Shown: positions 3,726-39,141 of the stretch, in pieces | How the letters are laid out: each line of letters begins with the position of its first letter | How positions within the stretch are numbered: position 1 is the first letter of the stretch | Virus record (IMG/VR): IMGVR_UViG_3300008448_000070 | Coordinates: 1 to 64,000 of that record | DNA: 64,000 nucleotides | Reading direction: 5' to 3' (one strand) | Source of the DNA: a virus | The notes under the pieces: model-generated | Databases searched by the model: none | What the model saw: the letters and a program-made list of their open reading frames with translations, nothing else | Told to the model about the DNA's origin: nothing | Translations under genes and position numbers: made by a program

Positions 3726-4793
3726 TTAAAAACCTATTTTATTTATCTTATTACTTTTAAATACTTCCACATCTATATTGTAAATGTCGGCCAAACACAT
3801 CCCTTCAAATACGCTTATATTTTTATTTAATTTTTTTAATAATTTTTCAGTATCGGGTAATGAAAGTTTTTCAAATTTGTATTCGGCGATTAACCTACCT
3901 TTTCTTAATAAAGCCTGATCGATTTTTTCTCTCTTCATGTTAAACGTTGCAACAATTTGAATTGAGAGACAGTCCCCTAAAATTCCATCAGTTAAATTTA
4001 AGATATTTGAAACACCAGCAGGTGAACCATTATTTTCTCTATCACCTATTACTCTTTCAGCATCTTCAATAATTAAAATAGAATTTTTATACTCCATCAA
4101 AAAAGGAATTATTGATGGTTCAGACAACATTTCCGCCATAGATGGTGGAATAAATAAAATATCTTTTTCTTTAATTAATGATGTTAGATATTTTATATAA
4201 GATGTTTTACCTGTACCGGGATCACCATGTAATAAAATTATACCCTTACCATTATTTTCATTCAATCTTGAGACTACTGTATTGTGTACTTTGACAAAAT
4301 CTTTACCATAATTTAATTCAAGATCCATTGGTGGGGAATATAAATCATAATCTTCTGTGTCTAAGTGACCCATATCACTTTTAACAAGTTTAATACTTGC
4401 CTTTTTCTTTTGTTTCTCAAATTTCTTAAATGTATCTAATAATTCTTTTAGATATTCTTTACCTATTTGTAAATTATAATAAATTTCAACTTGAACTAAA
4501 TTATCTTTAACATTATCTAAATTATTGTTTACTATAATTAAAAACTCTTTTTTAAAATTCTCATATAGTATTTGAGATGAATCATCTCTTCTATTTTTAC
4601 TAAAAATTTTTGCAACCTCAATAAAACCTAACTCTTCGATTTTTTTCACAACCTTAGGATCATAGTTAACCCTGATGTCAGTGTATTTTGATGGAATAAA
4701 ATCAAATTTTATTACAAAATATTGTTCAGCAGGAATTTGATGTCCATACGTTGTATCATACAACATATAATGATCTGGTATTTTTCTACTCAT
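3726..4793 (-). CDS. AAA+ ATPase with C-terminal Ile-Gly-Phe
   Basis: 355 residues. Residues 1 to about 170 form a non-ATPase domain without a recognised family. The AAA+ core follows with Walker A GDPGTGKT (190-197), Walker B ILIIEDAE (239-246), a sensor-1-like VATFN, and an arginine-rich segment (LLRKGRLI) of BCS1/proteasomal-ATPase type. The last residues are NKINKIGF. An Ile-Gly-Phe sequence is the ClpP-docking signature of ClpX-type unfoldases, and this genome encodes a ClpP. However, no aromatic pore loop is seen (the loop reads IPPSMAEML), so a remodelling ATPase unrelated to ClpP is equally possible. It lies 1 nt upstream of thioredoxin. Confidence 0.85.
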   Translation of the reverse strand: MSRKIPDHYMLYDTTYGHQIPAEQYFVIKFDFIPSKYTDIRVNYDPKVVKKIEELGFIEVAKIFSKNRRDDSSQILYENFKKEFLIIVNNNLDNVKDNLVQVEIYYNLQIGKEYLKELLDTFKKFEKQKKKASIKLVKSDMGHLDTEDYDLYSPPMDLELNYGKDFVKVHNTVVSRLNENNGKGIILLHGDPGTGKTSYIKYLTSLIKEKDILFIPPSMAEMLSEPSIIPFLMEYKNSILIIEDAERVIGDRENNGSPAGVSNILNLTDGILGDCLSIQIVATFNMKREKIDQALLRKGRLIAEYKFEKLSLPDTEKLLKKLNKNISVFEGMCLADIYNIDVEVFKSNKINKIGF

Positions 4794-11868: not shown

Positions 11869-12410
11869 TATATATTATTCTTTCTACTGTCGATTATTGA
11901 TTCAAAAGTTGTTTTGAATGTCTCTTCAAATTTTACTAATTTATCTAAAACTTGTCCAACTTCATTTTCTAATTTCATCATTTCCGCATTAACATATACA
12001 CCAGAATCTTTACCTGCGATGAATACAAAACTTATATCCTCATCGGATAATTTACCATCTAATCTAACTTGATCTTGATTTATTGTTAAACCTGGTTCAA
12101 AATCTACAATTTGTGAAACTTGTTGTTTGAAGTTATCCAATAGGTCTGATATTGATTTCTTTTGTTCATCTGTCAAATCCATATCCGCCTCGTCATTTGA
12201 TATCATTTTAACATCCACATCATTGATCGCAGTAATGTTGTCTTTTTGTCCACTGTCTCCTGTTTCCTTATTAGAATCCATATCAACACCAAATTCAGTG
12301 TCTTCTAATAGTTTATTTGCTTTTTTTGATTGATGTGATTCATTTAACTTTCTCAATGTGTTCAACATTGTTTTTGTCTGATCGTATGCTATGACTTTTC
12401 TCTTATCCAT
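11868..12410 (-). CDS. Hypothetical protein, 180 aa
   Basis: Not recognised. The N-terminal helix (MLNTLRKLNESHQSKKANKLL) is followed by an acidic linker and then a domain with beta-strand pattern (ISFVFIAGKDSGVYVNAEMMKL) and a C-terminal helix. It overlaps the amidase stop by 8 nt and ends at TAATG shared with the next gene. A structural or assembly role is inferred from context only. Confidence 0.72.
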   Translation of the reverse strand: MDKRKVIAYDQTKTMLNTLRKLNESHQSKKANKLLEDTEFGVDMDSNKETGDSGQKDNITAINDVDVKMISNDEADMDLTDEQKKSISDLLDNFKQQVSQIVDFEPGLTINQDQVRLDGKLSDEDISFVFIAGKDSGVYVNAEMMKLENEVGQVLDKLVKFEETFKTTFESIIDSRKNNI

Positions 12411-13002
12411 TTTTAAAAAATATTGTAAAATCGAACGAAGGGTTTATATCTGTATAAATATCCGAATAATTTGATTTATATACAATCCCATTAAACTTAG
12501 ACACACCATTGTTTAATGCGTGTGATGGCATTGATTTTTTTTCTATTTTATGTTTTTCACATAAAGATTCACATAACTTACTTATGGAGTCGTACTGAGA
12601 TTCATTATATTTGTCCCAAAAAAAATAATTTCTCCAATTTCGTATATGTGGTTCACTTCTATACGTGTCTCCGATCCAATTATTCATGAAACCCGTTATT
12701 GTATTTTTATGTAACCAACCGAGATTTTCGATTGCAATTTTAATAATCTTTCTATCTACGTTAGGTATGTCAAAGGTTTTTGAACTATAATCAGTATCAA
12801 ATAATTGATAAATTGCCCCAAGTTTGGAAATAACAAAATGAGGAATATCTTCATATTCCCCATTTTTTCTATACTTTATTTTATTTATGAAATCGTCAAC
12901 TCTTCTTTGAGTGTCGTATAATAGAATCTGAGTTTTCTTAGATTTTTTTCTATATATATTTAATTTTTTATCATCTAAACCGTCTACGTTGTGTACTAAC
13001 AT
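12403..13002 (-). CDS. N-acetylmuramoyl-L-alanine amidase-like endolysin (divergent)
   Basis: 199 residues. The layout follows amidase_2/AmpD-type enzymes: His4 in LVHNVDG as possible first zinc ligand, IPHFVISKLGAIYQLFD (the PHF.I...G.IYQL strand pair), a helix with SQYDSISKLCESLCEKH, SHALNNG (His161), and DINPSFDF in place of the usual DPGPAFDW. The fold-defining strands are convincing; the metal ligands are less certain because the loop between His161 and Asp185 is long. Expected role: cleaving the amide bond between muramic acid and stem peptide at lysis. No signal peptide, so a holin or other export is needed. Confidence 0.65.
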   Translation of the reverse strand: MLVHNVDGLDDKKLNIYRKKSKKTQILLYDTQRRVDDFINKIKYRKNGEYEDIPHFVISKLGAIYQLFDTDYSSKTFDIPNVDRKIIKIAIENLGWLHKNTITGFMNNWIGDTYRSEPHIRNWRNYFFWDKYNESQYDSISKLCESLCEKHKIEKKSMPSHALNNGVSKFNGIVYKSNYSDIYTDINPSFDFTIFFKNG

Positions 13003-13219
13003 TACGAGAAATTACTTTTCTTATTTGTGTCTGAGGAAGAATTTCTTCTTCTGACTGTGGGATTATGGTTTCATTATTTTCCAAATCATATATTACAAGA
13101 TTTGGGTTTCCGTCGTCCTTTTCCCAATATAAAGATTCTTCATCAACTAATTCTGTCGAATCTAATATTTGTGTTGTATCCGAAACCGGGTCTTCTGATT
13201 GGGTTTTTTCTTCTATTAT
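12971..13219 (-). CDS. 82-codon continuation of the membrane protein gene in the -1 frame
   Basis: The gene at 13216-14517 ends at an A11 tract (13229-13219 on the minus strand) followed directly by TAA. Reading one base back (-1) opens 82 sense codons to a TGA at 12973-12971. The sequence begins IIEEKTQSEDPVSDTTQ, continues with the same Glu/Pro/Thr/Gln-rich composition as the upstream tail, and ends basic (RKVISRNVSTQRRRFR). No other gene explains 13003-13215. Either polymerase or ribosome slippage makes a longer form, or one base is missing in the homopolymer of this assembly. It overlaps the amidase start by 32 nt. Confidence 0.6.
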   Translation of the reverse strand: MIEEKTQSEDPVSDTTQILDSTELVDEESLYWEKDDGNPNLVIYDLENNETIIPQSEEEILPQTQIRKVISRNVSTQRRRFR

Positions 13220-14517
13220 TTTTTTTTTTCATCTTCCTCATTATTGGGAGATGGTTCATTTATCTCATCGATTTGAGTTGTCTCTTCATTTGTTGCAAAT
13301 GGTTCAGGAACCGTTTCTTGTTCCCATTCTTGAAACTGATTTGGGTAATCCTCAATATTATCTTGGAAAATATTCTCAGAATTTGGTTCTATAGTGGAAA
13401 AATTTTGTTCTATTTCTTCTTCAGTAGGTTCTATTGTGGAAAAATCTTCCTCTTTAACTAACTCAAATTTTCTTTCCCATTCATCCATAAACATCTCCCT
13501 AACTTCCTCGTCTGATAGTGCTGGTGTGATAGTTTCTTGTTTTAGTTGTTCATGAATTTCTTCTGTCATTTCAAATGCCCCCTCCGGTCCTATTGTAAAG
13601 TCATCACTAACAACCGGCTCCTTAACTATAGGAATAGTGTAAGGTGGTGGATCATATAAACCAAGTTCTTCATCTTTTTGCATCATTTCAACAAGTATTT
13701 CTTTTCTTTCTTCTTGTGTAGGAGTGGTTGGAAATGTGTAAACGGGTTTACTGTACTCGTCATCGTATTCCATATTTTCGGGAAATATACTATGTTTTTC
13801 TTCTTCAATTACAGGAGGTTGGTCATCCCAAGTACTAAACGGCATTTCAATATTTTTTTCTGTGATATTATCTTGATATTTTTTTGCCGACTCTTTTAAG
13901 TTTTCATTTGGTTTTGGTGGGTTCAATAAAACCTCTTCTAATTTTTTAAAATCCTCATCGGATAATCTAATTTTAGAAACTTCACTCATTAAATGATTTG
14001 CAGGAATTACATCCTTTTCTTCTTTTATTTCATTTGTAATTTCTTTTTTCCTATCCTCTTCAGTAAATTTCACTAACATATGAAGAAATGACAAAGAAAT
14101 TATTGGTAACATTCCACCAGCAAATAGTGCTAAAAATCTTTTATGACCAACAAGATCACCTTCTTCTACACCCATAAAAGAAACTAAAGGTGATACTAAA
14201 TCTACCCAATCTTTGAAGGGGATTGAGTTTATATCAATATAAGAATATGCAAAAAATATGTTACCGATGAACTGAACTAATGTAACGATTAAAAAGGGAA
14301 AATAAACTTTCTTACCCATATCGGCAGATATCGCAGCCAGAGCGGATAACGCAGCAATCTCAATACCTATAGACAAATAAATTGCCCAACTTAATGGGTT
14401 GGATATTCCATACCATTTAGTAACGTGTGAAATAGAAACTATTGCAACAGTTATAATCGGTATTAAAAAAGCCCCAATAATTAAACTTTTATAGTGAGTA
14501 TTAATCCAATGTTTCAT
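13216..14517 (-). CDS. Four-helix membrane protein with long acidic tail
   Basis: 433 residues up to the stop after A11. The first ~160 residues contain about four transmembrane helices (IGAFLIPIITVAIVSI, WAIYLSIGIEIAALSALAAIS, FPFLIVTLVQFIGNIFFAY, FLALFAGGMLPIISLSFLHML). The rest is an acidic, Pro-rich cytoplasmic or periplasmic tail with repeated FSTIEP(T/N) motifs. No family recognised. It is next to the endolysin and upstream of it in the operon, so a role in the lysis stage or in membrane reorganisation is possible but unproven. See the separate entry for the probable C-terminal continuation. Confidence 0.75.
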   Translation of the reverse strand: MKHWINTHYKSLIIGAFLIPIITVAIVSISHVTKWYGISNPLSWAIYLSIGIEIAALSALAAISADMGKKVYFPFLIVTLVQFIGNIFFAYSYIDINSIPFKDWVDLVSPLVSFMGVEEGDLVGHKRFLALFAGGMLPIISLSFLHMLVKFTEEDRKKEITNEIKEEKDVIPANHLMSEVSKIRLSDEDFKKLEEVLLNPPKPNENLKESAKKYQDNITEKNIEMPFSTWDDQPPVIEEEKHSIFPENMEYDDEYSKPVYTFPTTPTQEERKEILVEMMQKDEELGLYDPPPYTIPIVKEPVVSDDFTIGPEGAFEMTEEIHEQLKQETITPALSDEEVREMFMDEWERKFELVKEEDFSTIEPTEEEIEQNFSTIEPNSENIFQDNIEDYPNQFQEWEQETVPEPFATNEETTQIDEINEPSPNNEEDEKKK

Positions 14518-14519
14518 TA

Positions 14520-14810
14520 TTACTTTAATAATTCTTTTTGTAAATTAGTAATGTCTTCATCGATTTGTGTTTGTCTTTGTACATCTAAAATTTTTCGATC
14601 AGTTGCCTGAATCATCCTTTTTTCAGATTTAAGACCTTCGATTTGAAGAATTAAACCTAATTCTTTTTTTGTATAAGTGGAATCCTTAATTTCTTTTATT
14701 TCATTTTTAATTTTTGTAATTTCTCTACTATCTGAACAACCTTTGAAAAAGGTTAATAATATGATTACAAAAACAATAATTGTAAAATTTTTTTCAATGA
14801 ATTGTTTCAT
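14520..14810 (-). CDS. Small membrane-anchored coiled-coil protein
   Basis: 96 residues: an N-terminal hydrophobic helix (FTIIVFVIILLTFF) followed by KGCSDSR and a long Lys/Glu coiled coil. The Cys after the hydrophobic stretch recalls a lipoprotein, but the residues before it (FFKGC) do not fit a good lipobox. The topology (single anchor plus coiled coil) is also that of an inner-membrane spanin. Role unassigned. Confidence 0.7.
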   Translation of the reverse strand: MKQFIEKNFTIIVFVIILLTFFKGCSDSREITKIKNEIKEIKDSTYTKKELGLILQIEGLKSEKRMIQATDRKILDVQRQTQIDEDITNLQKELLK

Positions 14811-17514: not shown

Positions 17515-18189
17515 TTATGATTTTCTTACTACAATTTCATCTATAATTCCATAATCTAACGCCTCATGACACCCCATCCAAAAATCTCTTGTGGCGTCTG
17601 TCATAACCTGTTCTTTGGTTTTTCCACAATATTTTCCCAATAGTTCGAATAGTCTGTCATTTTTTCTTCTCCACCACTTCATAGTAATTTCGGCGTCCTG
17701 AATATTACCCATCGCACCCCCCGAAGACTGGTGTAACATGATTTCAGAATCCTCCATCGCACCTCTTTTACCTTTTGTACCTGCACCTAAAAGGATTGAT
17801 CCCATGGATGCTGCCATTCCTGTACAAATTGTTCTAATATCGGAGTGTACGTAATCCATAACATTTACCATAGATAAACCTGATTTTACGGATCCACCAG
17901 GACTGTCTATGTGCATTGTGATGTCATTATGATCTATACTATCAAGATACAATAACTGTGCCTGTACTACTGATGACATATAATCATTAACTTCCCCAAC
18001 CAAAACTAAAATTCTTTCCATCATCAAACGTGAAAATACGTCCATAACCGTCACATTCATTTGTCTTTCTTCTAAGATATAAGGAGTTAAACTGTTTTCA
18101 ATCCTTTTATTGTAGTAGTCCAATGTTAATGAACTAACACCTTTGTCTTTTGCGTATAACCCAAAATCTTTAAACTGATTAGCGTTCAT
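17515..18189 (-). CDS. clpP: ClpP-type serine protease
   Basis: 224 residues, close to cellular ClpP. Catalytic Ser128 in GMAASMGS, His153 in MLHQSSGGAMG and Asp202 in TRDFWM; the spacings 25 and 49 equal those of E. coli ClpP (97, 122, 171). The handle helix and HIDSPGGS strand are present. The enzyme looks intact and cellular in type rather than like the diverged ClpP-fold head-maturation proteases. Without an unfoldase it cleaves only short peptides, so it must work with a host ClpX/ClpC or a phage ATPase. A Bacteroidota-type promoter precedes it and a hairpin follows it, making a single-gene unit. Confidence 0.92.
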   Translation of the reverse strand: MNANQFKDFGLYAKDKGVSSLTLDYYNKRIENSLTPYILEERQMNVTVMDVFSRLMMERILVLVGEVNDYMSSVVQAQLLYLDSIDHNDITMHIDSPGGSVKSGLSMVNVMDYVHSDIRTICTGMAASMGSILLGAGTKGKRGAMEDSEIMLHQSSGGAMGNIQDAEITMKWWRRKNDRLFELLGKYCGKTKEQVMTDATRDFWMGCHEALDYGIIDEIVVRKS

Positions 18190-27883: not shown

Positions 27884-29320
27884 TTAACTTCCACCACAAT
27901 CATTATTGTCGACACAAGGTGTACTCGACAATATCGCAGATGAATATCCAAGATATTGTGAATCATTTTTATAGTACGTCCCCGATGATGTTATCGATTG
28001 TAAACAATTAGTTACTATGTTTCCTGCTGTGTATCCTGTTATTGTTATTGAATTCCCATTATAATCAACCGCACTAAAGAAAACTGCCCCATTTTGTAAT
28101 GGATTAGTATTTCCTGTCGCATCGTCTAAATCAGTTTGTAAAACCGTTATGTCACAACAAAAAGATGGCGGATTTGTAGGAGTCGGTGTTGGTGTAGGTG
28201 TAGGTGTAGGTGTAGGTGTTACACATTGAATATATCCACTTGGGGTAGTTGAACTAATAAAATCGTAAGTTATTGTATATGGGTCACATGTAGAATCACA
28301 TTCAGCAATATAATATCCACTCGTTACACCCGTTACCGATCCTGTTGATGATCCATTTAAAATTAAAATGTTTGTGTAATTTGTAAAGGGATACCCTATA
28401 CAATCACCTGTTCTAACTCCTTGTATTGTTACAGTAATATTCTCGGTTGCATTTATAGGTGTTCCACCAGGACTATCATATAAAGTTACCGTAATAGTAC
28501 TTATACTATCATAATTTTCGCCAGGATCTCCACATTCAGACGGTACCTGAGTAAGGTAATCAACAGTAAAATCTAAACACATAGAAACCGGAGGTGTTGG
28601 TGTTGGAGTATCGGTAGGTGTGGGTGTTGGTGTTGGTGTTGGTGTTGGTGTTGTACATGGTGTACACGATGAAGGGTTAAATAAGACTGATGGTGTTGTG
28701 TCTTTGGTCCATGATCTTACATTAACACCGTCAGAAACATAGTACGTACCATTTGATAGTGGTGGAATTTCAGTTGAATTTAATGTTGTATAATTACAAT
28801 AATCAGGACCTCCTGTAAATGAAACATTTGTTAATATTTGTCCACTAACTTGTCCACACGCACCGTTAATTGTTGACGATAAATATAACTGTATAGTCGG
28901 TGTTGGGGTTGGCGTTGGTGTTGCAGTGGGAGTAGGTGTTGGAGTTGTGGTAGGTGTAGGTGTTGGAGTTGTGGTAGGTGTTGGTGTGGGTGTGGCGGTT
29001 GAAGTTGGCGTTGGAGTATCGGTTGGTGTTGCAGTGGGAGTAGGTGTTGGAGTTGTGGTAGGTGTAGGTGTTGGTGGAATTATTTCTCCTCCACCACAGG
29101 TAACTGTCGATGAAGATGTCCAATCACTTTTAATTCCTCCGCAATCGGTCCTCATACCATAGTCATAAGTTTCACCATCGGTTAGGGATGTGATTACTAA
29201 AGGTGAACTTGAAGTTGTACCTGTTGTATATGTAACATCTGATGATAGTTTATATCTATATTCAAAAGTACAACCTATACAACTCACAGGTGGTGTCCAA
29301 TTTATAGTTAAAGTTGCCAT
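27884..29320 (-). CDS. Fibronectin-III and Thr-Pro-linker virion protein
   Basis: 478 residues. Residues 1-75 look like an FN3 domain (TINWTPPVSCIGCTFEYRYKL, ITSLTDGETYDYGMRT). Three long linkers of alternating Thr-Pro with interruptions ([15 protein letters not shown]) separate beta-rich, Cys-containing domains. The last domain (DLDDATGNTNPLQNGAVFF...) is homologous to one in the protein at 30161-31474. The linkers are encoded by GGTGTA/GGTGTT-type microsatellite DNA. Probably a surface adhesin or decoration fibre of the tail; O-glycosylation of the linkers is possible but not shown. Confidence 0.75.
   Translation of the reverse strand: MATLTINWTPPVSCIGCTFEYRYKLSSDVTYTTGTTSSSPLVITSLTDGETYDYGMRTDCGGIKSDWTSSSTVTCGGGEIIPPTPTPTTTPTPTPTATPTDTPTPTSTATPTPTPTTTPTPTPTTTPTPTPTATPTPTPTPTIQLYLSSTINGACGQVSGQILTNVSFTGGPDYCNYTTLNSTEIPPLSNGTYYVSDGVNVRSWTKDTTPSVLFNPSSCTPCTTPTPTPTPTPTPTDTPTPTPPVSMCLDFTVDYLTQVPSECGDPGENYDSISTITVTLYDSPGGTPINATENITVTIQGVRTGDCIGYPFTNYTNILILNGSSTGSVTGVTSGYYIAECDSTCDPYTITYDFISSTTPSGYIQCVTPTPTPTPTPTPTPTNPPSFCCDITVLQTDLDDATGNTNPLQNGAVFFSAVDYNGNSITITGYTAGNIVTNCLQSITSSGTYYKNDSQYLGYSSAILSSTPCVDNNDCGGS
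28880..29075 (-). repeat. Thr-Pro-coding microsatellite
   Basis: Imperfect hexamer-type repeat of GGTGTT, GGAGTT and GGTGTA on the plus strand, encoding alternating Thr-Pro on the minus strand. Longer copies (GGAGTTGTGGTAGGTGTA) recur within it. Similar tracts are at 28170-28220, 28585-28655, 29700-29893, 30577-30612, 30930-31072 and 39255-39413. Confidence 0.85.
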
Positions 29321-29347
29321 TTATATTTTGTTCATATTTTAATTAAT

Positions 29348-30145
29348 TTATATTGGACAAATTGCCGATGGTTGACCGTCTTTCCACATTGTAACAGAAA
29401 CATTTAATGGTGTTGGATCGACAATATATTCATCATATCCAACAAAGTTATCGATTGGTACACTTGTGTACAATTGAATTGGAGTTGATAAATCACAAAC
29501 TATAAAATTCACTATATTACCTGATCCGTTTTGCCAAAATCCTTTTATTTTATATGGTAATACCAATTCACTTACGGTTAATGTTCCATTTTTTCCCGAT
29601 TCTGATAATGTTACATTTTCATTTAACAATATGTTATTATCTTTATCATATATTGTTATTCCTCCTCCAGCATTTTCTGTTATTGACCAAAATAATTGTG
29701 TTGGTGTAACTGTGGGAGTTGGTGTTGGTGTAGGAGTTACGGTTGGAGTTGGCGTTGGCGTATCTGTTGGTGTAGGAGTAGGGGTTGCAGTTGGTGTAGG
29801 AGTTACGGTTGGTGTAGGAGTTACGGTTGGTGTAGGAGTTACGGTTGGTGTAGGAGTAGGAGTTGCAGTTGGTGTAGGAGTAGGTGTGGGTGTTGGTTTG
29901 TTTTGTACCGGTAAACACAATGTATTTCCACTACATACTCCATTAGGTGCTATTTTAATATATGATGTGTTATCATTAATGTTTGTAATCGTGATGCCAG
30001 GAGTGTTTAATGTTGACAATAAAACACTTCCATATGATGGAATTAGTGTACAAGAATTACAATCACCATCAGTACATTCTAAAATTTGTACTGTTGATAT
30101 TTGTGTCCCTCCTGTAATTCCTGATATCGTTATATTAAATGACAT
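29348..30145 (-). CDS. Thr-Pro-linker virion protein, 265 aa
   Basis: Residues 1-85 are a beta-rich domain ([20 protein letters not shown]) with two Cys-rich turns (CTDGDCNSC). A Thr-Pro linker of about 65 residues follows (85-150), with interspersed Val/Ala/Asp, then a C-terminal beta domain ([21 protein letters not shown]...). Second of three tandem Thr-Pro proteins; likely arose by duplication of modules joined through the same linker. Inferred to be exposed on the virion. Confidence 0.72.
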
Positions 30146-30160
30146 ATTTTATATTAATTA

Positions 30161-31474
30161 TTAACAAGTAACAAAAACTCCTACTCCACTGGAATTAACA
30201 AGTATATTGAAATAAATTATATTACTTGAGGTTGCAACAAAACTGTATGGTGTTGTTTTACCACAATATCCAATATAATTATTTATATCAATTGCTTCTG
30301 TATTATCTTGATTTTGTCCTTCACCAAATTGAATATCTTGATCACCGGTGTTTGTTAATCCAATATAAATCATATCACCAATATTCGCATATATTGCACT
30401 ACTAACATTTGGGTAATTTGACATAAATCCATTAGTTGTGGTAGTTGCCCATGGAGCGTCTGGTAAATATTCTTCCCATGTACCACTATTTACTTTAACC
30501 CATACTCTTAAATCTGTTTCACTATGTGACGCAAATGATGTGCATCTAATAGTTAAAGGTATCATTGAAGCTTCTGTGGGTGTCGGAGTGGGTGTTGGTG
30601 TAGGTGTAGGAGATGTACAGCAAACTCCTGTATCTTCATATGTTGACAACACTTGGAACGGTGTTATCGGATAACTTGAACCAAATTCTTGTTGGTCATC
30701 GTGATAATAATAAACTATTGGTTGATAATCACCATTTATTGTTGAACAAAATGCGTTTGTATATGTACCGTCAGTGTCATATATTAATTCTTCTTGTGTT
30801 AATAATTCAGGGCAATTCCAATACAATACATATACCTTACCATCTTCAGACGGATTTGTGTTTCCTGTTGCTGACAACAAATCATTTGAAGAAATTGTTA
30901 CATCAAAATATACACATTCACACGGTTCTGTTGGGGTTGGTGTTGGTGTTGGTGTTGCAGTGGGAGTAGGTGTATCGGTAGGTGTTGGAGTTGGTGTAGG
31001 AGTTACGGTTGGAGTTGGAGTTGGCGTATCTGTTGGTGTAGGTGTAGGAGTTACGGTTGGAGTTGGCGTTGGGTCGTTATTACATATCAAACTATCTATT
31101 ATTGGTGGAGCACAATTAGCAACATAAAAAACACCTCCACCAACTACTAATCCAATATCACAACATCCAACACAGTCACCATAGTAAATTGAATCATGTG
31201 TGTATATGTTTTGTATTAGATACCCTGTGTCAGTTGTTTCACCTGTATAGACAAATTTGAACCAATATTGTGTATTAAATGTTGCACCCGTAAAAACAAT
31301 AGGATTAACATCATAATCTCTATAAGTTGATCCTGTATAGATCACACCACTATTTGCACCTATAGAATATGCAGAAAAACCAGAGACATGACTTCCTAAA
31401 GTTGTTCCGGTTTTGTAAAATAATGTAAAATTATTTTCTAAGTCTATATTGTGTAATCTAATGTTCAACCCCAT
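30161..31474 (-). CDS. Thr-Pro-linker virion protein, 437 aa
   Basis: The ATG at 31474 (MGLNIRLHNIDLENN) is preferred over an upstream TTG because the TATTTAT motif lies 6 nt before it. Order: N-terminal beta domain with TG-rich turns and a CVGCCD cluster, Thr-Pro linker 1 (about 140-185), a domain DLLSATGNTNPSEDGKVYV shared with the protein at 27884-29320, a short second linker, and a C-terminal beta domain (WVKVNSGTWEEYLPDAPW). No enzymatic motif. Likely a third tail adhesin or fibre tip. Confidence 0.74.
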   Translation of the reverse strand: MGLNIRLHNIDLENNFTLFYKTGTTLGSHVSGFSAYSIGANSGVIYTGSTYRDYDVNPIVFTGATFNTQYWFKFVYTGETTDTGYLIQNIYTHDSIYYGDCVGCCDIGLVVGGGVFYVANCAPPIIDSLICNNDPTPTPTVTPTPTPTDTPTPTPTVTPTPTPTPTDTPTPTATPTPTPTPTEPCECVYFDVTISSNDLLSATGNTNPSEDGKVYVLYWNCPELLTQEELIYDTDGTYTNAFCSTINGDYQPIVYYYHDDQQEFGSSYPITPFQVLSTYEDTGVCCTSPTPTPTPTPTPTEASMIPLTIRCTSFASHSETDLRVWVKVNSGTWEEYLPDAPWATTTTNGFMSNYPNVSSAIYANIGDMIYIGLTNTGDQDIQFGEGQNQDNTEAIDINNYIGYCGKTTPYSFVATSSNIIYFNILVNSSGVGVFVTC

Positions 31475-31480
31475 GATATA

Positions 31481-31487
31481 ATAAATA
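31481..31487 (-). promoter_or_regulatory. Recurrent TATTTAT gene-start motif
   Basis: TTGTATTTATTATATC directly before the ATG at 31474. Confidence 0.42.
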
Positions 31488-31510
31488 CAACTCAAAGAAA
31501 ATTAAATAAA

Positions 31511-31533
31511 AAACCCTTCAAATTGAAGGGTTT
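31511..31533 (-). terminator. Terminator after giant-fibre operon
   Basis: AAACCCTTC (31511-31519) pairs with GAAGGGTTT (31525-31533) across a 5-nt loop; on the minus strand the stem is followed by TTTATTTAAT. It ends the fibre/small-membrane-protein transcript before the promoter motif of the next gene. Confidence 0.75.
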
Positions 31534-31556
31534 ATTGTTTTAAAATATTTTTAACT

Positions 31557-31748
31557 TTAATGTAATGGATAAATTGTATCAGTTGAATTAATCATCATAT
31601 TTTGATAATACGATTGATTAATTGTTTGTGTTTTTTTTGTTTGATTGTTATCTAACATAAATAATCCGTACATTAGTGTTGAAATTAATAATAACATTAA
31701 TAAAAATTTATTAGTTTTTTCTGACTCGTTTTTAAGAATTAGTTCCAT
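31557..31748 (-). CDS. Small membrane protein after giant fibre
   Basis: 63 residues from the ATG at 31748 (MELILKNESEKTNK). One hydrophobic helix (FLLMLLLISTLMYGLFML, about 15-32) is followed by an Asn/Gln/Thr-rich segment. The gene overlaps the 3' end of the fibre gene by 17 nt and is followed by a terminator, so it is co-expressed with the fibre. Function unknown; holin-like size but no supporting evidence. Confidence 0.65.
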   Translation of the reverse strand: MELILKNESEKTNKFLLMLLLISTLMYGLFMLDNNQTKKTQTINQSYYQNMMINSTDTIYPLH

Positions 31749-34700
31749 TTTCAATAATTTTTTTTAATTCGTTTATTTGATTTTGTTGTTCTTTAATTGC
31801 CTCGATTAATAATGGTACAATTTTTTCATACTGAACAGTTAAGTAATTTTCACCACTCTTCGAATTATCGTTACCATCATTATCAAATGGTGCAAGTTTT
31901 ACTGCCTCAGGAAGTACATCTTTAATTTCTTGTGCAAACACACCGACTAAACTTTCTTCTGTATTAAAGTTTGCAACTTCTTTTGCCAATTCATTCCAAT
32001 TATAAGTGAAACCTTTTAATGATAATACTTTATCTAATGAATTTTCAATTGGTTTAATATTAGTTTTTAATCTTTTATCAGATGAATATGCCACAACATC
32101 ATTCGAAGCATCTATTCTACCGGCGGTAGCATTTGGATTTACATTAACACCAAGTGCACCTGATATAATTTTTTGGCTACCGTTAACTTCTAAATGATAT
32201 GTTGGTGCAGTACTACTATTGAATCCAACTTTACCACTATCATCGAATCTGTGAAATCTATTGGTTGCTGCAACATCATCATAAATTTTCATGTAGAATC
32301 CACCTTGTGAGTAGATATGCATCATATCAGTTGGTGTAATTTCACCTTCTCTATATGATATGTTGAAATTTGCAGATCTGGCAGCAACACTTGCGTTTAT
32401 TAAATTTACTTCCTGTAAACTTGATAGAGTGGCCCCTGTATATACTGAAGCAAGTACAGTTGTATTTCCTGCAGAATCATTCTTAATAAGTGCACTTTGT
32501 CCATTAAATGTGAAATAAGCTTCACCATTAATTAGTCCACTTGTACCTGTTGCAGTCAATACATAATTGTCGTTATTGTTGTTAATCGTTGCCGCTCCTG
32601 ATGTTCCAGAAGAACCATTAGATCCCGATGTGCCAGAAGAACCATTAGATCCCGATGTGCCAGATGAACCATTAGATCCTGATGTTCCAGAAGAACCATT
32701 AGATCCCGATGTGCCTGATGAACCAGATGATCCGCTTGTTCCCGATGATCCATTACTTCCACTTGAACCACTACTTCCTGAAGATCCATTACTTCCACTT
32801 GAACCCGAAGATCCACTTGATCCTGATGTACCTGATGAACCATTAGATCCTGATGTTCCAGAAGAACCATTAGATCCTGATGTTCCAGAACTACCTGATG
32901 AACCGCTTGACCCTGAAGAACCACTTGAACCACTACTTCCTGAAGAACCACTTGAACCACTACTTCCTGAAGAACCAGATGATCCGCTTGAACCACTACT
33001 TCCTGAAGAACCAGATGATCCTGATGTACCCGATGATCCATTAGAACCTGAAGTACCAGAAGTTCCATTCACACCAGACGTACCTGAAGAACCAGATGAT
33101 CCTGATGTTCCAGAAGAAGATGCATTTGTTTTTGTTTCTAATTTTCCTGTTAATGTATTATAAACAACAACTTCAGTTGATGTTGATCCTGTTGTAAATC
33201 CATTAACATAAATCGATCCTGTAAATTGATGATTATCATCCAATGTGTCACCAAATTTTGTTGATCCTGATGAGTACATTACCGATGACGATACATATGT
33301 AACAAAAAATTCGTTAGCACTTATTGTACCTTTAACATCTAATGAACCTGTAACTTTTAAATTATTTGTTGTTGACCAATATGATCCCGTTTGAGCAAAA
33401 ATTGAATCACCTGATGTTCCTGACGATCCGTTTGAACCTGAAGTACCTGAAGTACCTGATGATCCACTTGAACCTGAAGTACCTGAAGTACCTGATGATC
33501 CACTTGAACCGGAAGATCCGCTTGATCCTGATGTACCTGAAGTACCCGAGCTACCAGAGCTTCCACTTGAACCGGAAGATCCGCTTGAACCGGAAGATCC
33601 GCTTGAACCTGAAGTACCTGATGTACCCGATGATCCACTTGAACCTGAGGTACCTGAAGTACCTGATGAACCATCTGATCCACTCGTACCTGAAGTACCA
33701 GATGTTCCATTTATACCTGATGTTCCTGAAGTACCTGAAGTACCAGATGTTCCATTTATACCTGATGTTCCTGAAGTACCTGAAGTACCAGAAGTACCAG
33801 AAGATCCAACTTGTCCGGCGGTACAGAAGATTGTACTTACACAATTACCACTACACTCTGAATAAACAAAACCAGATGGACATGTGTATCCTGATGATAA
33901 ATAATCTCCATTTATATCTTGTACTATTGTTGCGGTTGTTTCTCCACTTGTTGTATAAACTACATTTAATTCAGAGTAAGATGTTGCACCTGTTAATTCT
34001 GATAACGTATTGTCATAAATTTCACAACCAAAACCTGCATCACTTCCTAAGTTTAAACCATATATTTCAAGAATATGTGTACCTCCACCTATTTGAATAG
34101 GATAAACATGCCACCATTTAAATTGTTCGTCATTCCAAACATTTCCATACGTGTTTAAAATTTCAACGCCGTCAAGTACAAATCTATACTCATTGTCCCC
34201 ACCTATACCAACATAATATGTTTTTTCTGAAGTAAATCCACTTAAACAAACTGAGAATCCAACCCAAGTATCAATAGGTGCACTTCCATATGGATTGGTC
34301 CATAATGCACATCTATTCAACGGACCGACAGTTGATAAGTTGGGGTTACCCCAAGTTGTTCCTGTATAACTTCCACCTGATTGAGGTGTACTATATTGAA
34401 AATCGTAAGTGCCTGTACCATTTGAATTAAAATCACTCGACATGAATTGTGTACCGAAACTACTGTACACATTTAATGTACGTCCAGTCAAATTGATTGC
34501 TGAGGTTGGTGCAGTTGCACCTGTAACTTCTGTTCTATAATATGATGTTGAATTATATTGTTCCCAAACGTAATCGGGATCACATCCTGAACTATCAAAT
34601 ACAAAACTTGTACCAGATGTACCCGATGATCCACTCGAACCCGAAGAACCACTTGTGCCAGATGTTCCTGATGTACCCGATGATCCACTTGAACCTGATG

Positions 34701-37700
34701 TACCAGATGTACCTGTAGATCCACTACTACCACTTGTTCCTGATGTACCAGATGTACCTGTAGATCCACTTGAACCAGAAGTACCACTTGTTCCTGATGA
34801 TCCACTTGATCCAGAAATACCAGATGTTCCAGATGTGCCTGAGGATCCTGAAGATCCACTTGTCCCTGTAGATCCTGATGATCCACTTGAACCACTTGTT
34901 CCTGAAGTACCAGATGTACCAGATGTACCAGATGTACCTGATGTTCCTGATACCCCATCAACTCCAGATGTACCTGAGGATCCCGATGAACCAGATGTTC
35001 CACTTGAACCTGAAGAACCTGACGTACCTGACGTACCGGATGTCCCTGTAGATCCTGATGATCCACTTGAACCACTTGTTCCTGAAGTACCTGAAGTACC
35101 TGAGGTTCCACTTGATCCATTTATACCTGAAGTACCTGATGTTCCTGAAGTACCGGATGACCCTGATGTACCACTTGAACCGGAAGATCCACTTGTTCCT
35201 GATGTACCACTACTTCCTGAAGAACCAGATGATCCTGAAGTTCCTGATGTTCCTGATGAACCAGAGGTACCAGAAGATCCTGATGTACCTGAGGTTCCTG
35301 ATGAACCGTCTGATCCTGATGTGCCCGCAGACCCGCTTGTTCCACTTGTTCCAGAAGAACCTGAAGTGCCTGATGATCCGTTTGACCCACTTGTTCCTGA
35401 TGTACCAGAAGAACCTGATGTTCCCGATGGTGTTGATCCAATTATTAATAAAAGTTGTTGATTATTTGAAAATATAGACGATCCACCTTGACTTTGTAAA
35501 GTTGAAGGAAACGTATAATAAGTTGTATTATCAACTGATGTACCAATCATCCATCTTTGGTAATTCAAATGGCTTGATTGATCTTGTAAAACTATAACAG
35601 ATCCCGATGCAAGTGTTCCTAAGAAAATATCAAGATTATTATTTAAACCATCGGTATCACTTATATTTAAACTTGTTGCACCTGTCTGAGACACATTATC
35701 CCATAGTATGAAACTTGTTCCAGGATCACCACTTGTTGAGTTTGTTTTTGCTTGATAATTAAAAAAGGAGTTTGAGAGACCTGAAGTACCTGATGTACCA
35801 GCAGATCCGGAACTACCTGATGAACCAGATGTTCCTGAAGTACCAGATGTACCACTACTTCCAGAAGATCCTGATGTACCTGATGTTCCTGAAGTACCCG
35901 CAGTTCCGGATGAACCTGAAGTACCACTTGTTCCTGAAGTGCCAGATGAACCTGATGTACCTGAAGTACCGCTACTACCACTACTACCAGATGATCCTGA
36001 AGTTCCTGAACTACCAGATGATCCTGAAGTTCCACTTGTTCCCGATGATCCCGATGTTCCTGAAGATCCTGATGTACCTGATGTTCCTGAAGTACCTGAA
36101 CTACCACTTGAACCGGAAGATCCACTTGTTCCTGATGTACCAGTACTTCCTGAAGAACCTGATGTACCACTTGTTCCTGATGTACCAGATGATCCTGATG
36201 TTGAGGTGTATGCAACTGCAGCTACACCAATATTTTTAATATTAACTATAATAGATGGTGCGGCTGGTGCAATAAAAGGAGTTGTTGTTCCACTTAATGC
36301 AGTAAGTCGAGCATATTGAGATTCACTTGCCATGACAAGTTGTACTTCATCACCTTGAGTTAAATCTAATATTATACTAACAAAAGGTAATTGTAGCGTA
36401 GAATTCGCAACCAAATCAATATATGAATCTGATCTCGGAACATCTGTTCCATTTACTCGAAGCCAAAAACTCATTAAAGATTCTGTTCCTTGAGTTTTTT
36501 CCACTTGTGGTGAATATGAAAACTCATATATACCATTATAATTTACTTGAACGGTATTTCCACTCAATAATGTAATACCATTTTCAATTTCAGTATCTGT
36601 ATATGATACAATTGTTGGTGTATTCGATGCGGTAACATTTTGTGTTTGATTACTACTATAAGAAGCATAATAGTTCATAACACCCGCACCAGAACTTCCC
36701 GAAGATCCCGATGAACCAGATGTTCCACTTGTACCAGAACTTCCCGAAGATCCCGATGAACCAGATGTTCCACTTGTACCAGAACTTCCCGAAGATCCCG
36801 ATGAACCAGATGTTCCACTTGTACCAGTCGAACCAGATGATCCACTTGTACCAGATGTTCCTGAACTACCAGATGAACCAGATGATCCACTTGTACCAGA
36901 TGTTCCTGAACTACCTGACGTTCCTGAAGATCCAGCAATACCAATTGGTATTACTAAGAATTCATCGTCATTATTTGGTAATGATCCTCCAGAAGATACT
37001 TGTGAAACCACATAATCCTCATAGGAAGATTGTAATGGATTTATCGCATCAATTCTTAATGTCTTGAATGTCATCGGATCATTTTTCTTGACAAATTTCA
37101 AGTATGATCCAATTTGTAAATTATTTAAAAATGTTGTAAAACTTGATAACGAAGGGATATACGCAATATCACTAACCGCCAATGCAGATGGTGATGTTCC
37201 CCAATCTGTTATATTAAATCTAAAATAGCCCGATGTTGGGTCTGAAGATGTATCGTTACTTGAACTATACTTCCATATTGCTAAGTGACCTTCTAAACCT
37301 TGATTACCGCTTGTACCAGATGTACCTGATGAACCATCTAAACCTGAACTACCTGAAGTACCGTCAGCACCTGAGGTTCCACTTGTTCCTGAAGACCCGT
37401 GTGTACCATCTAATCCCGATGTACCAGATGAACCTGATGTGCCTGATGAACCACTTGTACCTGATGTACCTGAGGTTCCACTTGTACCTGAAGTACCGTC
37501 ACCACCAGAAGCACCATCAAGATTAATTTCCCAAGAATTATATGTTCCACTACCGAAAGATCTTGTAACATATACAGAAAATGCACCTGTATTTAAATCA
37601 TATGAAACTATCTCTCCCTCCATATAATTTGAGGGACTATTAACAACAATAACAGATTGTACCGTTGTATATGCTAAATTCGTTCCACCTGTGAAATTTA

Positions 37701-39141
37701 TTGTTGTTCCGCTTGGTGAAACTGAAAAATTTGTATTTGAAGTTGTAAAATATTTGTCCCCACTTATACCCGAACTACCTGAAGTTCCTGAAGATCCTGA
37801 TGTACCTGATGTTCCTGATGTACCAGCACTACCTGACGTTCCTGATGAACCGGACGTACCCGAACTACCACTTGTTCCACTTGTACCACTGGAACCATCC
37901 GTACCAGATGTACCTGATGTACCCGATGAACCAGATGAACCACTTGTTCCTGATGTGCCATCAATTCCCGATGTACCAGAAGACCCCGAAGATCCTGATG
38001 ATCCACTTGTACCAGATGAACCCGTGGTTCCTGATGAACCAGAAGTTCCTGATGTACCTGAGGTTCCACTTGTACCTGAAGATCCGTCCGAACCAGAAGT
38101 TCCTGAAGTACCAGAAGATCCACTTGTACCTGAAGAACCTGAAGTACCTGAAGTACCTGATGTACCAGCACTACCCGATGTTCCTGAACTACCAGATGTT
38201 CCAGATGTTCCACTTGAACCAGAGGTTCCCGAAGATCCGTCTGAACCAGATGTTCCTGATGTACCAGACGTACCTGAAGTACCATTTTGTCCTGTTGCAC
38301 CATCGAGATTAATTTCCCAAGCGGTATATGTACCTCCTCCTGTTGAAGAAGTTGGTGCACTAAATTGTAATTGACCTGTTGATGGATTATATGATGTTAC
38401 GATACATTCTTGATATGTTGTTGGATCACCGCTTACCGCAATTACAATAGATTGTGCGGTTGAATATGATAAATCCGTTCCAACTGTTAATGTACCACTA
38501 TTTGGTAATGTAAAAGTACTTGTTGATGTTGTTTTATATCTATCACCATTTAAACCACTTGTTCCTGACGATCCGCTTGATCCTGAGGTACCTGATGTTC
38601 CTGTTGATCCCGAAGATCCGCTTGTCCCTGATGATCCACTCGTACCGGACGTACCCGAACTACCTGAAGTACCGCTTGATCCTGAGGTACCAGATGTTCC
38701 AGACGTACCTGAACTACCTGACGTTCCGCTTGATCCTGATGTACCCGCAGAACCTGATGTACCTGATGAACCCACTGATGTCATCAGATCCCAATCATCG
38801 GGTGTTATATCAGGAGACGTTGCTCCTGGATTTGTATTTTCAACACATATATATGAACTACCGTTGTAATAAACAACGTCTCTTATAAAATACCCAAATG
38901 CCGATGACCATGTACCTTGCCAAGAAAATCCTCGACCTGATGTACCTGCAGATCCAGATGTACCAGATGACCCTGAAGTGCCGGATGTTCCTGATGAACT
39001 TTCAGTTATACCTAAATAACTTAAAGGTATTTGTTCAGTTTGTGCAGTTGCACCTGTATAGTTAACTATCGCAATTTTCGAATCATTAGTAACTGCTGTA
39101 AGCGAGCCGGAGGGTAGTTCTGTTATCTTCTTATCGTACAT
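31732..39141 (-). CDS. Giant Gly-(Ser/Thr)-Ser repeat tail fibre with S74 chaperone
   Basis: 2469 residues. Order: N-terminal attachment segment (1-47), a CBM5/12-like module WQGTW....DVVYYNGSSYICV (about 71-123), and long runs of Gly at every third position (G-T-S/G-S-S) separating globular modules. These include twin modules at about 197-280 and 457-542 (both ending EINLDGA), related modules at 614-737 and 1120-1237, a C1q/TNF-like jelly roll at 817-977, a PA14-like lectin region at 1514-1780, and a QTGSYW module at 1912-2009. The C-terminal peptidase S74 domain (SSDKRLKTNI, YNWNE, GVFAQEI, VQYEKIVPLLIEAIKEQ; 2350-2469) normally guides trimerisation and cuts itself off. Probably the main host-recognition fibre. 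Confidence 0.88.
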   Translation of the reverse strand: MYDKKITELPSGSLTAVTNDSKIAIVNYTGATAQTEQIPLSYLGITESSSGTSGTSGSSGTSGSAGTSGRGFSWQGTWSSAFGYFIRDVVYYNGSSYICVENTNPGATSPDITPDDWDLMTSVGSSGTSGSAGTSGSSGTSGSSGTSGTSGTSGSSGTSGSSGTSGTSGSSGTSGSSGSTGTSGTSGSSGSSGTSGLNGDRYKTTSTSTFTLPNSGTLTVGTDLSYSTAQSIVIAVSGDPTTYQECIVTSYNPSTGQLQFSAPTSSTGGGTYTAWEINLDGATGQNGTSGTSGTSGTSGSDGSSGTSGSSGTSGTSGSSGTSGSAGTSGTSGTSGSSGTSGSSGTSGTSGSDGSSGTSGTSGTSGTSGSSGTTGSSGTSGSSGSSGSSGTSGIDGTSGTSGSSGSSGTSGTSGTDGSSGTSGTSGSSGTSGSSGTSGSAGTSGTSGTSGSSGTSGSSGISGDKYFTTSNTNFSVSPSGTTINFTGGTNLAYTTVQSVIVVNSPSNYMEGEIVSYDLNTGAFSVYVTRSFGSGTYNSWEINLDGASGGDGTSGTSGTSGTSGTSGSSGTSGSSGTSGLDGTHGSSGTSGTSGADGTSGSSGLDGSSGTSGTSGNQGLEGHLAIWKYSSSNDTSSDPTSGYFRFNITDWGTSPSALAVSDIAYIPSLSSFTTFLNNLQIGSYLKFVKKNDPMTFKTLRIDAINPLQSSYEDYVVSQVSSGGSLPNNDDEFLVIPIGIAGSSGTSGSSGTSGTSGSSGSSGSSGTSGTSGSSGSTGTSGTSGSSGSSGSSGTSGTSGSSGSSGSSGTSGTSGSSGSSGSSGAGVMNYYASYSSNQTQNVTASNTPTIVSYTDTEIENGITLLSGNTVQVNYNGIYEFSYSPQVEKTQGTESLMSFWLRVNGTDVPRSDSYIDLVANSTLQLPFVSIILDLTQGDEVQLVMASESQYARLTALSGTTTPFIAPAAPSIIVNIKNIGVAAVAYTSTSGSSGTSGTSGTSGSSGSTGTSGTSGSSGSSGSSGTSGTSGTSGSSGTSGSSGTSGTSGSSGSSGTSGSSGSSGSSGTSGTSGSSGTSGTSGTSGSSGTAGTSGTSGTSGSSGSSGTSGTSGTSGSSGSSGSAGTSGTSGLSNSFFNYQAKTNSTSGDPGTSFILWDNVSQTGATSLNISDTDGLNNNLDIFLGTLASGSVIVLQDQSSHLNYQRWMIGTSVDNTTYYTFPSTLQSQGGSSIFSNNQQLLLIIGSTPSGTSGSSGTSGTSGSNGSSGTSGSSGTSGTSGSAGTSGSDGSSGTSGTSGSSGTSGSSGTSGTSGSSGSSGSSGTSGTSGSSGSSGTSGSSGTSGTSGTSGINGSSGTSGTSGTSGTSGSSGSSGSTGTSGTSGTSGSSGSSGTSGSSGSSGTSGVDGVSGTSGTSGTSGTSGTSGTSGSSGSSGSTGTSGSSGSSGTSGTSGISGSSGSSGTSGTSGSSGSTGTSGTSGTSGSSGSTGTSGTSGSSGSSGTSGTSGTSGSSGSSGSSGTSGTSFVFDSSGCDPDYVWEQYNSTSYYRTEVTGATAPTSAINLTGRTLNVYSSFGTQFMSSDFNSNGTGTYDFQYSTPQSGGSYTGTTWGNPNLSTVGPLNRCALWTNPYGSAPIDTWVGFSVCLSGFTSEKTYYVGIGGDNEYRFVLDGVEILNTYGNVWNDEQFKWWHVYPIQIGGGTHILEIYGLNLGSDAGFGCEIYDNTLSELTGATSYSELNVVYTTSGETTATIVQDINGDYLSSGYTCPSGFVYSECSGNCVSTIFCTAGQVGSSGTSGTSGTSGTSGINGTSGTSGTSGTSGINGTSGTSGTSGSDGSSGTSGTSGSSGSSGTSGTSGSSGSSGSSGSSGSSGSSGSSGTSGTSGSSGSSGSSGSSGTSGTSGSSGSSGTSGTSGSNGSSGTSGDSIFAQTGSYWSTTNNLKVTGSLDVKGTISANEFFVTYVSSSVMYSSGSTKFGDTLDDNHQFTGSIYVNGFTTGSTSTEVVVYNTLTGKLETKTNASSSGTSGSSGSSGTSGVNGTSGTSGSNGSSGTSGSSGSSGSSGSSGSSGSSGSSGSSGSSGSSGSSGSSGSSGSSGSSGTSGSNGSSGTSGSNGSSGTSGSSGSSGSSGSNGSSGSSGSSGSNGSSGTSGSSGSSGTSGSNGSSGTSGSNGSSGTSGSNGSSGTSGSNGSSGTSGAATINNNNDNYVLTATGTSGLINGEAYFTFNGQSALIKNDSAGNTTVLASVYTGATLSSLQEVNLINASVAARSANFNISYREGEITPTDMMHIYSQGGFYMKIYDDVAATNRFHRFDDSGKVGFNSSTAPTYHLEVNGSQKIISGALGVNVNPNATAGRIDASNDVVAYSSDKRLKTNIKPIENSLDKVLSLKGFTYNWNELAKEVANFNTEESLVGVFAQEIKDVLPEAVKLAPFDNDGNDNSKSGENYLTVQYEKIVPLLIEAIKEQQNQINELKKIIENGTNS
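32590..38995 (-). repeat. Gly-X-Ser triplet-coding repeat arrays
   Basis: Short codon-level repeats encode GTS and GSS triplets in about nine separate arrays within the giant fibre. Some arrays include longer perfect units, for example a 27-bp unit (GSNGSSGTS) around 32600-32720 and the 45-bp unit at 36691-36825. They are recombination-prone and explain the long open frames on the opposite strand. Confidence 0.9.
36691..36825 (-). repeat. Perfect 45-bp tandem repeat, three copies
   Basis: Units 36691-36735, 36736-36780 and 36781-36825 are identical, each encoding 15 residues of the Gly-Ser/Thr-Ser array. Identity including third codon positions points to recent expansion. Confidence 0.9.

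Follow-up and report, generated by a model that had tools for sequence, protein, structure and literature searches.

The gene considered here lies in a 64,000-nucleotide stretch of viral DNA (the window), taken from a virus record of 66,260 bases, and it poses a simple question: does a reading frame that stops immediately after 11 adenines, while the −1 frame stays open for another 82 codons, give one protein or two? The original prediction had described a membrane protein gene stopping straight after 11 A, an 82-codon open −1 frame ending at a TGA, and a 213-nt gap crossed by that frame. All of this is borne out, with the ORF running from 14517 to 13216 on the minus strand, the A11 at 13229-13219, the TGA at 12971 and the gap measured from the zero-frame stop to the ATG of the neighboring amidase gene at 13002. 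The zero frame at the tract reads GAT GAA AAA AAA AAA TAA TAG, the stop codon occupying 13218-13216, and continuing the 433-aa ORF through the −1 extension gives a long form of 515 aa (Table 1). The A11 is the longest A/T run of the window, the runner-up being an A9. It had also been claimed that the two frames would become continuous at 10 or 12 A, which is correct for 12 (or 9) and incorrect for 10.

Table 1. Positions of the features at and around the A-run in the window.
Feature	Position	Strand	Remark
Short-form ORF, 433 aa	13216..14517	−	Four predicted TM helices and acidic tail
A11 tract, predicted slip site (T11 on + strand), codons GAA AAA AAA AAA	13219..13229	−	
Tandem zero-frame stops TAA TAG, immediately 3′ of A11	13213..13218	−	
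−1 frame extension, 82 codons plus TGA	12971..13219	−	Relatives have a homologous extension; most pairs show purifying selection
TacA/AtaR-like antitoxin C-terminal module (aa 173-215)	13873..14001	−	Pfam PF08681, E=2.6e-6
Module TQEERKEILVEMMQKDEELGLYD (aa 267-289)	13651..13719	−	Matches C-terminus of PIN-adjacent HTH antitoxin-like protein
Module PALSDEEVREMFMDEWERKFELVKEED (aa 332-358)	13444..13524	−	Common to relatives
Extension-only module LYWEKDDGNPNLVIYDLENNETIIPQSEEEI (aa 463-493)	13040..13132	−	Kept in many slip lineages and behind second membrane head
Basic C-terminal tail of long form RKVISRNVSTQRRRFR	12974..13021	−	Most long forms show RNVxNxxRR here
Amidase_2 (N-acetylmuramoyl-L-alanine amidase, endolysin candidate)	12403..13002	−	PF01510, E=1e-7
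Small protein, one hydrophobic N-terminal segment, directly upstream of 4TM gene	14520..14810	−	

No cellular homologue of the 433-aa short form was found, and PHROGs has no family for either the membrane protein or the adjoining amidase. Judged by the baseplate wedge protein, the nearest named phages are distant relatives at 26-29% identity (an uncultured phage, the Flavobacterium phages immuto and a Microcystis phage), so that the host of the window phage is likely a member of the Bacteroidota. Long PTPTPT and GTSGSSG repeats mark candidate structural proteins elsewhere in the window, at 27884-39141, and the slip extensions of three relatives (L012, L013, and L048) have PTPT linkers as well.

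To see how far the arrangement extends, relatives were collected by a first protein search, which returned five close relatives and two loci sharing short tail motifs only, and by a profile search, which returned 80 loci. Sixty loci, the window included, reduce to 35 distinct IMG/VR lineages when grouped at 93% nucleotide identity across 240 bases. Every one of these lineages has the pattern NNA AAA AAA AAN with 9-11 A (A9 in 2, A10 in 29, and A11 in 4), followed in the zero frame by a stop, often tandem, 0-5 codons after the run. Lineages with a complete contig have an open −1 frame of 50-151 codons. Tract length had been proposed as a point of comparison among relatives, and the comparison favors the prediction: the off-frame state is kept in all 35 lineages, and the shift required to enter the extension is always −1, whether the tract has 9, 10, or 11 A. 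Outside the slip sites, the sense strand of all coding sequence at these loci (521 kb) contains 547 A7, 116 A8, 21 A9, and 6 A10 runs; three of these six A10 runs sit at this same gene in reversed-polarity relatives (see below), and A11 occurs at slip sites and nowhere else. The 29 A10 and 4 A11 at the slip site, against six background A10 runs and no A11, are therefore more than chance would give. The A-run is very probably a conserved, programmed slip site from which this family of tailed-phage membrane proteins would obtain two products.

Tract length agrees completely within three groups of near-identical contigs from different metagenomes (12/12, 6/6, and 5/5 at A10) and is therefore no accident of assembly, so that assembly error is ruled out as a general cause. 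One pair of records differs: L112 and L115 share 98.5% identity across two blocks of ~7.9 kb in total, yet have A10 and A11, respectively (around 3898-3909), and therefore either the tract does mutate or one of the two records is in error. Although long A-runs are error-prone and this pair differs by a single A, it is extremely improbable that a homopolymer assembly or sequencing error disguises one continuous frame throughout, given an identical off-frame state at three tract lengths in 35 lineages, the concordant contigs and the zero-frame stops close behind the run everywhere. The same pair could be taken as a sign of phase variation at the DNA level, in which replication slippage would turn the gene on (long form) or off (short form) within a phage population. 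This reading is hardly more probable, since independent contigs of a single phage agree and the slip lineages share one off-frame phase rather than showing random phases.

Unrelated sequence after the stop in relatives had been named as a finding that would speak against two forms, and relatives do not have it; the extension is homologous among them and mostly under purifying selection. Computed without the last 36 nt, which overlap the amidase gene, dN/dS is <1 in nearly all scorable pairs, with a lowest value of 0.12. Three of the 23 pairs lie at 0.8-0.9 and one (L053/L066) exceeds 1 on a single synonymous change, so that the extension is apparently under weak selection in some clades. The conservation of the basic tail is not independent evidence, since this tail partly overlaps the amidase start. 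The two forms that had been proposed, one short and one extended with a basic tail, are thus backed by comparative evidence across 35 lineages.

A second membrane head, consisting of TM segments with a long coiled coil, is also followed by the extension-only module (consensus LYWEKDDxNPNQVIYDLENNxTIIPxSEEE). Behind this head, the module is found in the slip form in six loci (L102, L105, L108, L115, L117, and L119) and in one continuous frame in L097 and L099, as is the extension in the first-head relatives L028 and L047. Because the tails of L034 and L105 are 81% identical over 252 aa while their heads differ, the tail, slip site and extension behave as a putative cassette that is exchangeable between membrane heads. 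Another second-head group (L168-L210) has A9-A11 in most members, placed in mid-tail (around aa 307-349) and inside one long zero frame, and is a candidate for a slip site of reversed polarity; quick stops in the +1A frame of the second-head family showed no excess over background (median 3 vs 3) and do not count toward the case made here.

Reversed polarity is seen among first-head relatives. In L028 and L047 (to which L051 is identical at the slip site), one continuous zero frame codes for the long form, the same basic tail included, yet A10 runs are retained. Adding one A to the run of L028 gives LKKKR and removing one gives LKKKMS before a stop; at the first run of L047, the corresponding products are EEKKKLNS and EEKKT. 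Quick stops therefore await in both slip frames, and slippage would still give a short form. Both loci nest within the slip clade in the TM-domain tree, while 14 short homologues that lack the run group apart as a single clade (100/99 support). Since L028 and L047 keep A10 even though their zero frame already encodes the long form and both slip frames are stopped, the conserved trait is, on this comparison, the predicted production of two C-terminal variants, whichever frame encodes which. A distant TM-domain homologue (35% identity) without a long A-run at its end is present in L009 (LR756500.1), a 462-kb uncultured phage.

Slippage at such a run may occur in RNA polymerase or in the ribosome. 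About 9 A is the length at which slippage of bacterial RNA polymerase is described (PMC5009743; PMC3711429), and no slip lineage among the 35 has fewer. The search for a stimulatory RNA structure 3′ of the run found none above background (mean z −0.37 vs −0.42 in the reference). Because the run is never shorter than 9 A and a 3′ structure is absent, slippage is probably mainly the work of RNA polymerase during transcription. Programmed −1 ribosomal frameshifting, with RNA polymerase slippage in a minor role, could also make the long form, since every run (35/35) contains a slippery heptamer, A AAA AAA or A AAA AAN; A-rich heptamers are known −1 sites (PMC3711429), and the sequence upstream of the tract is purine-rich, with GAGG in 18/35 lineages. 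We consider this unlikely to be the main route: six or seven A would suffice for the heptamer, yet all slip lineages have at least 9, the full AGGAGG is present upstream in just 1/35, downstream structure does not exceed background, and the reversed-polarity lineages retain the run even with both alternative frames closed by stops. In reporters with other genes, the shift rose from 10% at A7 to 40% at A9 and 63% at A11, values in which both levels are lumped together (PMC3711429).

Whichever machinery slips, the product would end at a particular place. The gene order sigma factor - small hydrophobic-segment protein - 4TM protein - amidase is conserved, and in the window the −1 extension overlaps the amidase start by 32 nt. 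Among the 31 scorable first-head slip lineages, 30 have a long form that stops 32-38 nt beyond the amidase ATG, the exception (L037) stopping 21 nt short of it, while the short form of first-head slip lineages already terminates 114-417 nt ahead of the ATG. Four second-head loci have a long form that falls 9-10 nt short of the amidase ATG. The original prediction included neither this conserved overlap nor the nature of the tail. This spacing would suit a coupling of amidase synthesis to slippage, with ribosomes on slipped transcripts ending at the amidase start, a proposal to which we give about equal chances of being right or wrong. A comparable arrangement is known from Shigella, where slippage in spa13 gives a C-terminal extension (112 aa) that overlaps the start of the next gene and has a major effect on expression of spa32 (PMC5009743). 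The effect on the next gene belongs to Shigella, whereas coupling is inferred for the phage amidase, and the former case concerns a host gene of a secretion system, the latter a phage membrane protein and an amidase with predicted slippage.

In the AF2 model of the membrane protein, long helices at 2-36, 41-64, 68-93, and 122-165 are taken as predicted TM helices, followed by a low-confidence linker and helices at 187-198 and 205-219. A structure search with the TM domain gave no PDB match, and only two uncharacterized proteins of uncultured phages were matched. Residues 173-215 align to positions 37-79 of 80 of the TacA1 profile and match DUF1778 antitoxins in the PDB (6ajm, E=8e-5; 6gto; 6gtq, with a 46-residue chain; KacA, 5zgn). 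We take 6ajm and 6gtq to be AtaR with its toxin AtaT. The likeness to these antitoxins of GNAT toxins (TacA/AtaR/KacA) thus covers their C-terminal half without the DNA-binding half. The phage protein differs from them in that its tail is membrane-anchored and has neither the ribbon-helix-helix half nor an adjacent GNAT toxin gene, the neighbors being the small membrane protein and the amidase. The TacA1 module is present in 26 of 40 family members, and TacA-family genes were found in 7 of 120 sampled genomes from the family of G005, the genome of a Flavobacterium locus.

A second stretch of the tail, aa 267-289, matches the far C-terminal end of an HTH (excisionase-type) protein of ~151 aa at 31/31 confirmed chromosomal loci of Bacteroidota, and the segment LIDMMxxDEELGLYD of this protein is, by similarity, present in the window tail. 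At most of the 31 loci, a PIN gene was found, usually overlapping the end of the HTH gene; it was not located at the rest. The examined examples of the pair belong to HTH_17/TIGR01764 and PIN_3, and gene order and families suggest that the HTH protein is an antitoxin. Scored with an HMM built from the host C-termini only, the window tail came out best, with 36.5 bits, and 20 of the tails reached at least 14.9 bits, compared with a maximum of 8.5 bits among shuffled tails (100 per sequence). The HTH domain and overlapping PIN gene are absent beside the window ORF and present in L124, L127, L129, and L134. More broadly, L124-L154 show a pair that is widespread in Bacteroidota and looks like a toxin-antitoxin module: an HTH (excisionase-type) protein of 151 aa, overlapped by a PIN_3 protein of 187 aa (RSP_2648-like).

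Since C-termini of the TacA1 type and of the PIN-linked HTH protein are both matched, two unrelated antitoxin families appear to contribute toxin-facing pieces to one phage tail. These antitoxin-like modules are short, and several lineages are without them. For aa 332-358 and the extension module, no Bacteroidota host source was found at E<=0.001 in 299 genomes, and module FDGFVPEPFATPEEVEKFNID had no match in 345 genomes; lacking a positive control, both are weak negatives. Weaker matches to aa 332-358 (E<=0.1 in 395 genomes, a search likewise without positive control) were inspected in part, and none of those resembled an antitoxin end. One match to the extension module, in L155, sits in an MscS-like protein and was set aside as chance. 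No tail modules were found in named phages and plasmids. The aa 332-358 module of the membrane-protein tail (PALSDEEVREMFMDEWEKRYDLVEDDDI) is also found at the C-terminal end of a phage protein of 89 aa that is otherwise unrelated (L007:3642-3911) and may carry this interaction peptide on its own. Near the tail-array gene, at 17515-18189, the window also encodes a phage ClpP-type protease (PF00574, E=5e-56). Host antitoxins are often degraded by ClpP-type proteases.

A mechanism can be proposed in which normal decoding would terminate at the stop just past the A-run and give the short membrane protein, while slippage, whether by an added A in the mRNA or by a slip of the ribosome to −1, would give a form that ends at the amidase start and is, in complete cases, 50-151 aa longer. 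The membrane-anchored tail would tie up host toxins during infection through its antitoxin-derived peptides, and the long form would add further modules to it. That the tail is such an array of toxin-binding peptides (TacA/AtaR, PIN-antitoxin, and others), trapping host toxins in infection, is a proposal on which we are evenly divided. Slightly more tentative is its fullest version, a "poly-antitoxin" in which one tail would trap several host toxins at once, the slip site would set both module number and amidase coupling, and the cassette would swap heads.

The conserved position beside the amidase and the four modeled TM helices would suit a holin-like lysis component next to its endolysin, with tail modules that bind some other host or phage factor. 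We regard this alternative, which is compatible with the slip site, as a serious possibility but a somewhat doubtful one. Toxin binding by the tail rests on sequence similarity, which leaves room for it; against it, the tail matches C-terminal pieces of two unrelated antitoxin families without their DNA-binding halves, modular tails are swapped between two membrane heads, unlike known holins, and there is no match to a holin family.

Parts of the proposed toxin-trapping protein have counterparts in known systems. The poly-A tract of dnaX in Thermus and Chlorobi likewise has A9-A10, has been kept for long and gives two C-terminal variants per gene (PMC3711429, PMC5009743); its function is unrelated, and the phage family swaps the zero-frame form between lineages. 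In lambda gpG/gpGT and other tail-chaperone frameshifts, a phage gene likewise has a conserved shift close to its end and gives an extended form (PMC5009743), but those shifts are ribosomal and occur in tail-assembly genes, whereas the window gene encodes a membrane protein beside an amidase and has a long A-run. Phage antitoxin mimics, such as that of DarTG (PMC11481870), are also antitoxin-resembling phage proteins that serve counter-defense; those found in the open-access literature searched are single proteins directed at one toxin, whereas the window tail combines several peptide modules. The absence of such a combination from that literature is no proof of novelty.

If the slip-site reading is right, homopolymer slippage would be deeply conserved in tailed phages outside the tail chaperones, across dozens of lineages and two membrane heads. 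If the reading of the tail is right as well, it would provide a testable model of how one phage protein may disarm several toxin-antitoxin defenses, and its modules would indicate which host toxins are of importance, namely, a Bacteroidota PIN toxin and GNAT toxins.
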